Positions 4,334 to 8,297 of a stretch of 36,405 bases of DNA are shown one piece after another. Origin of the DNA: Brevinematales bacterium (GTDB taxonomy: Bacteria; Spirochaetota; Brevinematia; Brevinematales; GWF1-51-8); NCBI GenBank assembly GCA_013177895.1, contig JABLXV010000035.1, positions 1-36,405 of the forward strand, read 5' to 3'. The translations under genes and the position numbers were made by a program. The number at the start of each line of letters is the position of its first letter. Within the stretch, counting starts at the first letter, position 1. Under the pieces are notes generated by a model. It searched no databases and was not told the DNA's origin. It worked only from the letters and a program-made list of their open reading frames with translations.

Positions 4334-4843
4334 ATGTCTGAGATTTCCAAGGTAATGGTCGGACCTTTCGAAGGCGGAGCGCTGGTTAAGGTCACCGGCA
4401 GAGGTACTATGGAATTCTGCTCCCAATTATTCGATTATCTCATCGCGCGGATTGAAAAGAACAAATCCGAAAATATTTACTTTGAACTCTCCGAAACGAG
4501 CTATCTGGACAGTTCCTTTATTGGCGTCATTGTTTCGATAGAGAAGAAACTCCAAAAAGAATCGCGCGGGTCGATTGTGATCCTGAATCCCACGGAGAAG
4601 GTTAAAGAGATTCTCTCGATGATGGGGTTAAGCGAAATCCTGCCGATGAAGGAAAGTACCAAGATAAAGAATATTGAGTTAAATGAAGAAATAGAAAAGA
4701 AACTGGAAAAAGATTATAACGATATCAAACTGCTCTTGGAATCCCATCAAAATCTTATGGAAATCAATCCTGAAAACAAAAAGCGTTTCGGTCTGGTCGA
4801 GGAAATGCTGAAGCAGGAACTCGAAAGGAACAAAAATGAATGA
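4334..4843 (+). CDS. STAS-domain protein (anti-sigma-factor antagonist-like)
   Basis: A 169-residue protein with an N-terminal STAS domain (about 1-105) and a charged helical C-terminal extension (about 110-169). The phosphorylation-site region usually reading DSSG is Y-L-D59-S60-S61-F-I-G, so the serine is present although the following glycine is replaced by phenylalanine. STAS proteins of this type sequester anti-sigma kinases or act as scaffold partners, but no kinase or phosphatase partner gene lies in the window. AGGGG precedes the ATG at 4334. The end overlaps the lpxA start by eight bases, indicating translational coupling within the envelope gene block. Confidence 0.82.
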   Translation: MSEISKVMVGPFEGGALVKVTGRGTMEFCSQLFDYLIARIEKNKSENIYFELSETSYLDSSFIGVIVSIEKKLQKESRGSIVILNPTEKVKEILSMMGLSEILPMKESTKIKNIELNEEIEKKLEKDYNDIKLLLESHQNLMEINPENKKRFGLVEEMLKQELERNKNE

Positions 4844-5633
4844 TATTCATCCTACCGCGATTATTGGGCAGGACGTAGTATTAGGCGACGGAATTAAAAT
4901 TCACCCTTACGCTGTTATCGACGGGAAAGTCGAGATCGGCGACGGTTGTGTTATCGGTCCGTGTGTCCATCTGACCGGATGGGTACATATCGGGAAACGT
5001 ACTAAAATTTATGCTCATGCCTCTATCGGGGAAGACCCGCAGGATTATTCGTTCGACGGTACTCCGGGGCTGGTGGAGATCGGCGACGATTGTCTGATCC
5101 GCGAGGGTGTTACCATCCATACCCCTGTTCACGGGGACGAGGGCTGTAAGACGATTGTCGCGAATAATGCGTTCCTGATGGCGAACGCTCATGTCGCGCA
5201 TAATGTCGAAGTGGGGGAGTATACGGTTGTCGCAAACGGAACCTTGCTTGCGGGATACGCGAAGGTCGAGGAACGGGTGTTTCTTTCGGGGAACATCGGG
5301 GTTCACCAGTTCTGCCAGATCGGCGCGTTCAGTATCGTCTCGCCGGTCGCAAAGGTAGTCCAGAATATCCCGCCGTTTATGACCGCCGACGGGAATCCCG
5401 CGCTTGTGCATGGATTAAATGTGGTGGGATTGCGGCGGAACAGTTTTAACGAGGAACAACGCTCGAAGATAAAGGACGCGTATAAAATGCTCTATTTCAG
5501 CGGGATGGGTTTCCGGGCCGCGTGCGACGAGATAGAAGCGAAATATCAAGAGGATCCCTGGATAATGAGGCTGGTTACATTTGTCCGGCAATCCAAGAGG
5601 GGGATAATCGGTGCCGCCCAGAAAGGGGAATAA
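4836..5633 (+). CDS. lpxA: UDP-N-acetylglucosamine O-acyltransferase
   Basis: First committed acylation of lipid A synthesis: transfers a 3-hydroxyacyl chain from acyl carrier protein to UDP-GlcNAc, in the cytoplasm. Length 265 matches the family. The N-terminal two thirds are hexapeptide repeats of a left-handed beta-helix (IHPTAIIG, VEIGDGCVIG and so on). The catalytic histidine is H122 in NAHVAHNVEVG (equivalent to H125 of E. coli). The C-terminal helical region with NPALVHGLNVVGLRR is typical. It overlaps the STAS gene upstream and lpxB downstream by 23 bases. Very secure. Confidence 0.96.
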   Translation: MNDIHPTAIIGQDVVLGDGIKIHPYAVIDGKVEIGDGCVIGPCVHLTGWVHIGKRTKIYAHASIGEDPQDYSFDGTPGLVEIGDDCLIREGVTIHTPVHGDEGCKTIVANNAFLMANAHVAHNVEVGEYTVVANGTLLAGYAKVEERVFLSGNIGVHQFCQIGAFSIVSPVAKVVQNIPPFMTADGNPALVHGLNVVGLRRNSFNEEQRSKIKDAYKMLYFSGMGFRAACDEIEAKYQEDPWIMRLVTFVRQSKRGIIGAAQKGE

Positions 5634-6813
5634 CTCTTCCGATACGCAAAGTCCTTCTCATCAGAAAGAACTCAAAGCTGAAAAAACATTTTTCTTCTCC
5701 GCCGGGGAAATTTCCGGCGACGCTCACGCATCCGAGCTCATCGGCGAACTCAGCGCTATGGGGCGGTACGATTTCGTCGGACTGGGCGGGAAGCAGATGT
5801 TCGAGGCTGGGCTCCGTTCGGCGTTCGGCGACGTCTCCACGCTCAGTACGGTAGGGTTTGTCGAATCGCTCAACTTTATCGGAAAAAAAGTCCGCCTCCT
5901 CAGAAATTCGGTGGAGTTCCTGAAAAAAAATCCCCCCGCCGCCGTCATCCTTGTCGATAATCAGGGCTTCAATATCCTGCTCGGACGGGAAGCGAAAAAG
6001 CTGGGGATACCCGTTTTTTATTATATCCCCCCGACCGTGTCGGTATGGGCGGAATGGAACGCGCCTAAGGTCGCGGCAATCTGCGACCACCTGATCTGTA
6101 ATATAAGCGCTGATATGGAGATATACCGACGTTACACGGAAAATGTCTACTATCCCGGGCATCCGACTGTCGATAAAATCGCCAAGTTCGTGCCGGACGC
6201 GGGCTTCCTGAAAAAACTCGGGCTGACTCCCGGGAAACCGGTCGTATCGATATTTCCCGGTAGCCGCCATCAGGAGCTCAGGAAACTTCTGGGCATCATG
6301 CTGGACGCCGCGAAGATACTGATTGAGAGCGACGGGTATCAGGTGATACTTCCCGTGTCGCACGCCAAGTTCAGGGGGACGATTGAACGCGCGATGCATG
6401 CACGGAAGCTGGACGGCAGGATCGCGCTGGTGGAGGACGACCCTTACTCGGTGATGCATTCCGCATCGGTGAACATAATGGCTTCCGGCACCGCGACCCT
6501 TGAGTCGGTACTGATGCGGCGTCCGCCGGTCATCTGCTACAGGATATCCCCGATATCGTTCGCGATCGCGAAGCGCCTTGTAAAGAAACAAATGATCGGC
6601 CTTCCGAATATATTTCTCGATAGAAAGGTTTTCCCTGAACTCCTCCAACGGGACTGCAATCCGCGAAAGATCGCTCAGACGGTGCGCGAATTAATTTCTC
6701 CCAGCCCGGAGCTTCGCGCGTTATTGGAACAATCGTACGACGGTGTGCGGGACATTGTCGGCGAGCCGGGTGTTTCGTCACGCGCGGCGCGATATATCCT
6801 CGACCGGGTATAA
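5611..6813 (+). CDS. lpxB: Lipid A disaccharide synthase
   Basis: Glycosyltransferase of family GT19 that joins UDP-diacylglucosamine and lipid X to form the lipid A disaccharide at the inner membrane. Recognised by the N-terminal FFSAGEISGDAHASELI motif at about residue 27 and by FPGSRHQEL and the C-terminal nucleotide-binding segment around ASGTATLESV. The 400-residue length is normal, with an extra polar N-terminal stretch of about 25 residues. Translation starts at a GTG at 5611 inside the end of lpxA, with AGAGGGGG a few bases upstream. Its stop is one base from the ruvX start. Confidence 0.95.
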   Translation: MPPRKGNNSSDTQSPSHQKELKAEKTFFFSAGEISGDAHASELIGELSAMGRYDFVGLGGKQMFEAGLRSAFGDVSTLSTVGFVESLNFIGKKVRLLRNSVEFLKKNPPAAVILVDNQGFNILLGREAKKLGIPVFYYIPPTVSVWAEWNAPKVAAICDHLICNISADMEIYRRYTENVYYPGHPTVDKIAKFVPDAGFLKKLGLTPGKPVVSIFPGSRHQELRKLLGIMLDAAKILIESDGYQVILPVSHAKFRGTIERAMHARKLDGRIALVEDDPYSVMHSASVNIMASGTATLESVLMRRPPVICYRISPISFAIAKRLVKKQMIGLPNIFLDRKVFPELLQRDCNPRKIAQTVRELISPSPELRALLEQSYDGVRDIVGEPGVSSRAARYILDRV

Positions 6814-6814
6814 C

Positions 6815-7231
6815 ATGGGCAGGATTCTCGCTATCGACGTCGGTGAGAAACGGGTCGGCCTCGCGGTCACCGACGACCTCCAGATCATCGCATCCCCCTT
6901 CGACGTGCTCCCCAATAACAACGAACTTTTCACAAAGCTGAAAAACATCTGCGTCGAGTATAAAGTCGCCAAACTGGTGATCGGTATGCCGTATTCGAAG
7001 AAGCATAAGGAAGCCTCCGCGATGGCGGAAGGTTTCACCGAAAGTATTAAACAGGAGTTTGCCGACAGTATGGGGCTGGAAATCGATTTTCAGGACGAGC
7101 GCAACAGCTCTGTTTACGCCGAGACATGGATGAAGACCGAGGGCTATTCCTACAAACGGATACGCGAGAGTTCCGATAAATATGCGGCTCTCAAGATTCT
7201 CGAGGACTATATAACCCGACCAAAAGAGTAA
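6815..7231 (+). CDS. ruvX: RuvX/YqgF-family Holliday junction resolvase-like nuclease
   Basis: A 138-residue RNase H-fold protein of the YqgF family, implicated in processing of pre-16S rRNA and as a putative Holliday junction resolvase. The first beta-strand motif ILAIDVGEKRVGLAVTDD carries the catalytic aspartate, VIGMPYS is the second motif, and DERNSS and a late aspartate position complete the site. Longer in-frame reading upstream runs inside lpxB; the ATG at 6815, one base after the lpxB stop, gives exactly the family length. It appears to be the last gene of the lpxA-lpxB run. Confidence 0.93.
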   Translation: MGRILAIDVGEKRVGLAVTDDLQIIASPFDVLPNNNELFTKLKNICVEYKVAKLVIGMPYSKKHKEASAMAEGFTESIKQEFADSMGLEIDFQDERNSSVYAETWMKTEGYSYKRIRESSDKYAALKILEDYITRPKE

Positions 7232-7263
7232 GTGTATTATTAATGACACAGTTTAATGAATGT

Positions 7264-7321
7264 ATCCCGGAGGCTACTGGTTATCTTATAATATAGTATA
7301 GAAATAGTGAAGCACCGGGAT
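7264..7321. repeat. Spaced 7-bp inverted repeat upstream of lpxC
   Basis: ATCCCGG at 7264-7270 and its exact complement CCGGGAT at 7315-7321 flank 44 AT-rich bases and end at the first base of the sigma-54-like promoter. It may be a spaced regulator site, though chance is possible at this arm length. A TATAAT at 7287-7292 inside has no convincing -35 partner. Confidence 0.3.
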
Positions 7322-7336
7322 GGCATACTTCTTGCA
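7321..7336 (+). promoter_or_regulatory. Sigma-54 (RpoN)-like promoter before lpxC
   Basis: TGGCATACTTCTTGCA matches the -24/-12 consensus TGGCACG-N4-TTGCW: invariant GG (7322-7323) and GC (7334-7335) are present at the correct 12-base spacing, with mismatches only at the sixth and seventh positions. A start near 7347 would leave about 20 bases before the lpxC ATG, enough for the GGTGGGA ribosome site. No comparably good sigma-70 promoter was found in this gap. Confidence 0.55.
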
Positions 7337-7367
7337 ATAATAATGCAGCACAGGGTGGGAGCACGAT

Positions 7368-8297
7368 ATGAGAAGACAGAATACAATTAAAAAGAAAATA
7401 ACGTTTACCGGAAAAGGACTCCATAGCGGTAGGATCGGTCATCTGACCCTGAAACCCGCGCCCGAAGATACGGGTTTGGTATTTATATATAACGAAAATC
7501 ACCAGAAGCACTTCATTCCTTACACCCCTGAAAATGTGGTCGATACCCGGAACAATATCTCCATCAGCAACGGTAAGGCTGTGATTCGTACGGTCGAACA
7601 TCTGGTGGCGGCGTTGTACGGCCAGCGTATCGATAACTGTCTGATCGAGAGCGATATGAACGAAGTTCCGATTATGGACGGAAGTGCGCTCGAGTTCGTA
7701 GCGGGTCTGGAGGAGGCGGAAGTCGAGGAGCAGGCTAAGGACCGCGAGGAACTCCGTATCATTAACCCGGTATGGGTAACGTCGGAGGACAAGTTTATCG
7801 TGGCTCTCCCGTATAACGGCCTCAAGCTCAGTTATACGATCTCCTTCCCAAATTCCCCCATCGGTACACAGACATTTAATTTGGATTTTTCCTCGGAGAA
7901 TTTTCAGAAAAAAATCGCCGGAGCGAGAACCTTCGGTTTTATAGAGGACTTGGATTATTATCAGAAGAACGGGCTGGTGCTCGGCGGTGATTTTGATAAT
8001 GTCCACGTATTCAGTAAAAAAGAGAACCGTTCGCTGAACAGCTCGCGTTATGACGACGAGCCTGTCCGGCATAAAGTGCTCGATCTCATCGGCGGTATCG
8101 CGATGCTGAACTTCGACATCAAGGCGTTTATCATCTCCTACAAGGGCGGACATACGCTGGATACCATGTTCGCGCAGAGGGTGATGAGCACGATCTCCGG
8201 CGTCCAGAAAGTCGGCGGGGTTTACTCCTACGGGACGGATACGAATTATTATTACATGCTGGCGGATATTCTCGACCTTGAGAAATTCCCGTCGTAG
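7368..8297 (+). CDS. lpxC: UDP-3-O-acyl-N-acetylglucosamine deacetylase
   Basis: Zinc enzyme that removes the acetyl group from the LpxA product, the committed step of lipid A synthesis. Length 309 is normal. The catalytic residues are visible: E77-H78 in TVEHLVAAL, H235 and D239 in RHKVLDLIGG, and H262 in KGGHTLD. The N terminus KITFTGKGLHSG is canonical. It is separated from ruvX by 136 bases holding a sigma-54-like promoter, so it is probably transcribed separately from lpxA and lpxB. Neither lpxD nor fabZ, common neighbours, is in the window. Confidence 0.96.
   Translation: MRRQNTIKKKITFTGKGLHSGRIGHLTLKPAPEDTGLVFIYNENHQKHFIPYTPENVVDTRNNISISNGKAVIRTVEHLVAALYGQRIDNCLIESDMNEVPIMDGSALEFVAGLEEAEVEEQAKDREELRIINPVWVTSEDKFIVALPYNGLKLSYTISFPNSPIGTQTFNLDFSSENFQKKIAGARTFGFIEDLDYYQKNGLVLGGDFDNVHVFSKKENRSLNSSRYDDEPVRHKVLDLIGGIAMLNFDIKAFIISYKGGHTLDTMFAQRVMSTISGVQKVGGVYSYGTDTNYYYMLADILDLEKFPS

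Follow-up and report, generated by a model that had tools for sequence, protein, structure and literature searches.

We propose that lpxC in this genome is very probably transcribed, at least partly, from a sigma-54 promoter at 7321-7336, with an AAA+ activator, most likely an NtrX-like one, acting from 7233-7250. This reading is based on sequence comparison. LpxC is the committed step of lipid A synthesis, sets its rate and is a drug target; the best-known way of controlling it is proteolysis, in E. coli.

The window, that is, the whole stretch of 36,405 nt analysed here, is contig C35 of a genome of 3.6 Mb and 95% completeness (G000). FlaA, the family of the spirochaete periplasmic-flagellum sheath, was found in this genome and in 12 others of the phylum, compared with 0 of 14 control genomes, and on this basis we assign the phylum to Spirochaetota. 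The gene order on the + strand is lpxA, lpxB, a ruvX-type gene and lpxC, with the first three named by sequence reading. The features of the locus are as follows.

4836..6813, + strand: lpxA and lpxB, of the same pathway as lpxC and upstream of it (open reading frames, named from sequence)
6815..7231, + strand: ruvX/yqgF-type gene directly upstream of lpxC (open reading frame and sequence reading)
7321..7336, + strand: sigma-54 promoter TGGCATACTTCTTGCA, agreeing with the consensus in 10 of 11 letters and conserved across nine families (41 genomes)
7347, + strand: predicted transcription start of lpxC, placed from promoter geometry 12 nt after the C of the -12 element
7353..7361, + strand: conserved GGGTGGGAG, invariant in three congeners, probable ribosome-binding site of lpxC
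7368..8297, + strand: lpxC, UDP-3-O-acyl-N-acetylglucosamine deacetylase, 309 aa, with its ATG at 7368 (TIGR00325, 268.7 bits versus a cut-off of 187)

Sigma-54 sites were defined by GG-N10-GC in a TGGCAC-N5-TTGCA-like context and scored out of 11 consensus letters. Upstream of lpxC, the -24 GG is at 7322-7323 and the -12 GC at 7334-7335, so that the spacing is exact. When the 136-nt intergenic region was subjected to dinucleotide shuffling, 40 of 20,000 shuffles reached a score of 10 (p ~0.002). The site is the best sigma-54 site of the window, and shuffled windows had 0.2 such sites on average. A consensus-like sigma-70 promoter was looked for on the + strand from ruvX to lpxC, and none was found. 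The original prediction, which had placed the GG and GC of a -24/-12 promoter at exact spacing before lpxC and had seen no good sigma-70 alternative, agrees with these results.

The exact sigma-54 pattern was not enriched genome-wide, with 8 matches versus 7 for a control pattern, and genome-wide enrichment was dropped as support. The evidence from this single genome is therefore moderate, and conservation decides. The lack of enrichment would fit a -24/-12 match that arose as a chance resemblance. We consider this extremely improbable because the site is conserved at the same position in the 41 genomes, is nearly absent from control stretches, and is co-conserved with an enhancer (see below).

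Strong sigma-54 sites were also present upstream of P-II and amtB in the same genome (L012, G000:C1:15425; L019, G000:C97:4563). These are classic nitrogen genes, which suggests that the consensus is valid in this genome. Judging from these two sites, the organism appears to use RpoN for nitrogen control. Elsewhere in the genome, a strong sigma-54-like site on the minus strand (L014, G000:C17:63590-63605) was followed by a short stretch that closes with a G+C-rich hairpin and a T run. No convincing gene was found downstream of it, and the stretch is possibly a small RNA. Another sigma-54-like site was found upstream of the gene for a GAF/HD-GYP-domain protein (L018, G000:C73:17245).

When three congeners were compared from ruvX to the ribosome-binding site, the region was largely unalignable except for two blocks at a fixed spacing, AGTGTATTATTNATGANACAGT and GATGGCATANTNNTTGCA. 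The main conserved islands within the genus were the -24/-12 elements and one upstream (enhancer) block. For the whole phylum, we scanned the 73 genomes with a short LpxC for a site scoring at least 9 within 130 nt of LpxC. Such a site was found in 39 of the 73 genomes; the same scan of the reverse strand gave 2 of 73, and in-gene windows gave 0 of 73. With slightly weaker sites included, the count was 41 genomes in nine spirochaete families (f1, f2, f3, f8, f9, f21, f27, f28 and f32). Relatives in the genus, in the order and across the phylum thus share the predicted site ahead of lpxC.

From ruvX to lpxC, the + strand showed no terminator and, therefore, read-through from lpxA-lpxB-ruvX into lpxC is possible. 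All four genes are on one strand. Near lpxA and lpxB, no sigma-54 site scoring at least 9 was found. Because lpxC is normally essential, its strictly activator-dependent expression would be risky. These points would favour a minor role for the sigma-54 site, with lpxC transcribed mainly by read-through or from an unrecognised sigma-70 promoter. We regard this as improbable: a consensus-like sigma-70 promoter was missing from the intergenic region, and the promoter and the enhancer were both strongly conserved, also in families f2, f8, f9 and f32, which have a different upstream sequence.

Two elements upstream of the promoter were considered as sites for an activator.

7233..7250, + strand: candidate enhancer (upstream activating sequence) TGTATTATTAATGACACA, a conserved block and local variant of TGTNG-N8-CNACA
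7264..7321, no strand assigned: inverted repeat ATCCCGG (7264-7270) / CCGGGAT (7315-7321), rejected as functional

The first of these is likely to be the enhancer of the lpxC promoter. For a sigma-54 promoter, a conserved palindrome acting as enhancer is expected some 60-180 nt upstream, and TGTATTATTAATGACACA begins 88 nt before the -24/-12 site. The block is at the same spacing in two congeners (G001 and G003) and in f2 genomes. Upstream of the lpxC promoters of the phylum, the exact 18-bp palindrome TGTNG-N8-CNACA was present in 10 of 41 sequences, versus 0.1 expected. With at most one mismatch it was present in 21 of 41, from seven families, versus 1.4 expected. Exact copies occurred at a spacing of 8 only, and the enrichment was confined to that spacing. 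In f9 there were tandem copies 19-20 bp apart. Counting against the assignment, the copy in our genome agrees with the cross-family consensus in just 6 of its 8 positions.

The combination of enhancer variant and -24/-12 pattern was found once each in G000, G001 and G003, every time at lpxC. The TGTTG version of the enhancer together with the promoter (in f9, f21 and other genomes) was found at lpxC in seven genomes and in few other places, several of them inside coding sequence; in f9 and f21, the pattern was mostly at lpxC. We found no description of the TGTNG-N8-CNACA motif in the open-licence literature.

In three f2 genomes (L296, L297 and L298, around 1501-1605), the same enhancer variant and a -24/-12 site precede a sigma gene. 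Its product is a sigma-70-type factor closest to RpoS/RpoD models. A -24/-12 site was also seen before an RpoS/RpoD-like sigma gene in our own genome (L017).

The inverted repeat, which the original prediction had noted as ending at the promoter, is present in the sequence, but a functional role for it could not be upheld. A 7-bp repeat occurred in 47% of shuffles, and this one was missing in two congeners. We therefore attribute it to chance and rejected it as an activator site.

The genome carries rpoN with all three sigma-54 domains (AID, CBD and DBD) and six strong enhancer-binding proteins (EBPs) with GAFTGA or GSFTGA loops, as sigma-54 control in the predicted form would need. In family f4 of the same order (G006, G009, G011 and G012), which has small genomes, lpxC was apparently lost while rpoN was retained in a divergent form. 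Among the six EBPs, our candidate for the activator is the following.

G000:C1:91616-92971: NtrX-like response regulator (L005), adjoining an NtrY-like histidine kinase gene

This protein consists of a receiver, an AAA+ domain and a Fis-type HTH, and the kinase beside it is of the HAMP type. Its score against the NCBIfam NtrX model (NF051870), 445.6 bits, was the best of its NCBIfam matches but below the equivalog cut-off of 600, and we therefore call it NtrX-like only.

A tree was made of 60 EBPs from 15 genomes (13 with the lpxC promoter and two of f4 without lpxC), with a few weaker EBPs left out. NtrX-like proteins were the sole EBP group represented in all 13 promoter-bearing genomes, with exactly one member each. 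No member was found in the two f4 genomes. A kinase gene lay before most NtrX-like genes; in our genome, its domains make it NtrY-like. Among the lpxC-bearing families, NtrX was present in all nine with the site and absent from 11 of the 17 without it (Fisher p = 0.0024, with families partly dependent and NtrX presence called by a score threshold). Within f32, only G124 had no site, and it also had no NtrX.

Two observations count against this association. Six lpxC-bearing families without the site do have NtrX, and NtrX is present in many spirochaete families without lpxC. Because of the families without lpxC, NtrX must have further targets, and its presence was rejected as a marker of lpxC; only its distribution among lpxC genomes is informative.

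Given a real promoter, we think that there is a reasonably good chance that the NtrX-like protein activates it. The promoter and the enhancer might be real and the activator another of the six EBPs, such as the GAF-domain protein L003, the response regulators L002 and L004 or the receiver-less L007; EBPs of the L003, L002 and L007 types are also conserved in f1-f3. This seems unlikely to us. No protein of the L002 or L007 type was found in f9 and none of the L003 type in f8 or f21, though all of these families have the lpxC promoter; the NtrX-like group alone occurs wherever the promoter was sampled. In addition, the receivers of LpxC fusions cluster with those of NtrX (see below), and one NtrX gene adjoins lpxB.

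Outside spirochaetes, we analysed 80 lpxC loci from other phyla as controls, and 6 of the 80 had a site scoring at least 9. The 9-scoring sites of two of the control loci (L050 and L092) are probably due to chance. An acidobacterial locus (L109) and a deltaproteobacterial locus (L122) had the site together with exact copies of the TGTNG-N8-CNACA enhancer, and a Nitrospirae locus (L052) had it with near copies. One Nitrospira had the site and no enhancer copy. Each of these four genomes had one EBP with 585-613 bits against the spirochaete NtrX model, 28-136 bits above the next EBPs. In the deltaproteobacterial one of the four, a metagenome-assembled genome, the gene for this NtrX-like EBP lies directly after lpxB (L280). 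The gamma- and betaproteobacterial loci among the 80 were mostly without the site. Several phyla besides spirochaetes probably have an activator-requiring sigma-54 promoter, with an enhancer of its own, at lpxC.

The LpxC proteins of families f14, f16, f25 and f43 begin with a response-regulator receiver domain (by Pfam; L183, L184 and L186-L198), and the whole fusion protein is about 430-450 aa long. These receivers group with the receivers of NtrX-like proteins. The same families are without an lpxC sigma-54 promoter, and no NtrX-level match was found in their genomes. No report of a receiver-LpxC fusion was found in the open-licence literature. The fusions suggest that phosphorylation could also act on LpxC by another, second route. 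We tentatively put forward a wider reading, with somewhat more doubt than confidence, in which LpxC is under NtrX-type two-component control in several phyla by two interchangeable routes: the NtrX-like protein with sigma-54 and the TGTNG-N8-CNACA enhancer or, in spirochaete families where the activator is missing, a fused NtrX-like receiver. If this were true, phosphorylation would control the LpxC enzyme itself in the fusion families.

For our genome, the preferred reading of an NtrX-dependent sigma-54 promoter would work as follows. Sigma-54 RNA polymerase would bind 7321-7336 as a closed complex, and its opening would depend on the AAA+ activator sitting on the 7233-7250 enhancer. The activator would be the NtrX-like response regulator, phosphorylated by the adjoining NtrY-like histidine kinase, with transcription expected to start at 7347. 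Two-component phosphorylation would then make lipid A flux respond to an envelope or redox signal, possibly with basal read-through from lpxA-lpxB-ruvX beneath the regulated transcription of lpxC. In many spirochaetes, it looks as though outer-membrane synthesis is coupled to a signalling system and not to housekeeping transcription. If so, the LpxC decision in many non-model bacteria would be taken at transcription, under a signal-sensing kinase. The named regulator, the DNA motif and the receiver-LpxC fusions provide handles for testing what the cell senses.

In the open-licence literature, we found no paper on sigma-54 control of lpxC in spirochaetes. Sigma-54 has been described as a controller of the bacterial exterior, a general envelope theme (PMC3162934), and a comparison of sigma-54 regulons lists COG0774 (LpxC) among the sigma-54-enriched groups in Myxococcia (PMC12316311). 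Our finding shares the envelope theme with these papers, whose main texts leave lpxC control in spirochaetes unmentioned.

A spirochaete sigma-54 switch is known in the Rrp2-RpoN-RpoS pathway of Borrelia (PMC4014564). The arrangement in f2, where the enhancer-promoter pair also precedes the RpoS/RpoD-like sigma gene, recalls this cascade. To our knowledge, Borrelia differs in being without LPS and lpxC.

An NtrYX-type system has been tied to lpxC before. In Rhodobacter sphaeroides, NtrYX lowers the lpxC transcript, apparently indirectly, and affects the amount of LPS; no NtrX site was found at lpxC there (PMC7240162). NtrYX likewise lowers the lpxC transcript in Caulobacter (reviewed in PMC12444477). 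This lowering counts against our reading; in contrast to it, we propose a direct, activating role through a sigma-54 promoter and an enhancer.

The closest precedent is in Desulfovibrio vulgaris, where lpxC (DVU2917) is the only target of the sigma-54-dependent response regulator DVU2934 (PMC3333781, PMC4641369). Any view of RpoN control of lpxC as unheard of therefore needs qualifying. Orthologues of DVU2934 were reported in Geobacter lovleyi and Acidobacterium, and the Desulfovibrio motif before lpxC was reported only in close Desulfovibrio relatives (same sources). The Desulfovibrio system and the one proposed here would share a sigma-54-dependent response regulator acting on lpxC, in different phyla. 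The neighbours of DVU2934 are an HD-GYP regulator and a histidine kinase, whereas our candidate L005 sits with an NtrY-like kinase; another EBP of our genome, L004, is preceded by a kinase and has an HD-GYP-like protein in convergent orientation. In view of DVU2934, the promoter described here would be a phylum-wide spirochaete variant of an lpxC control that is already known.
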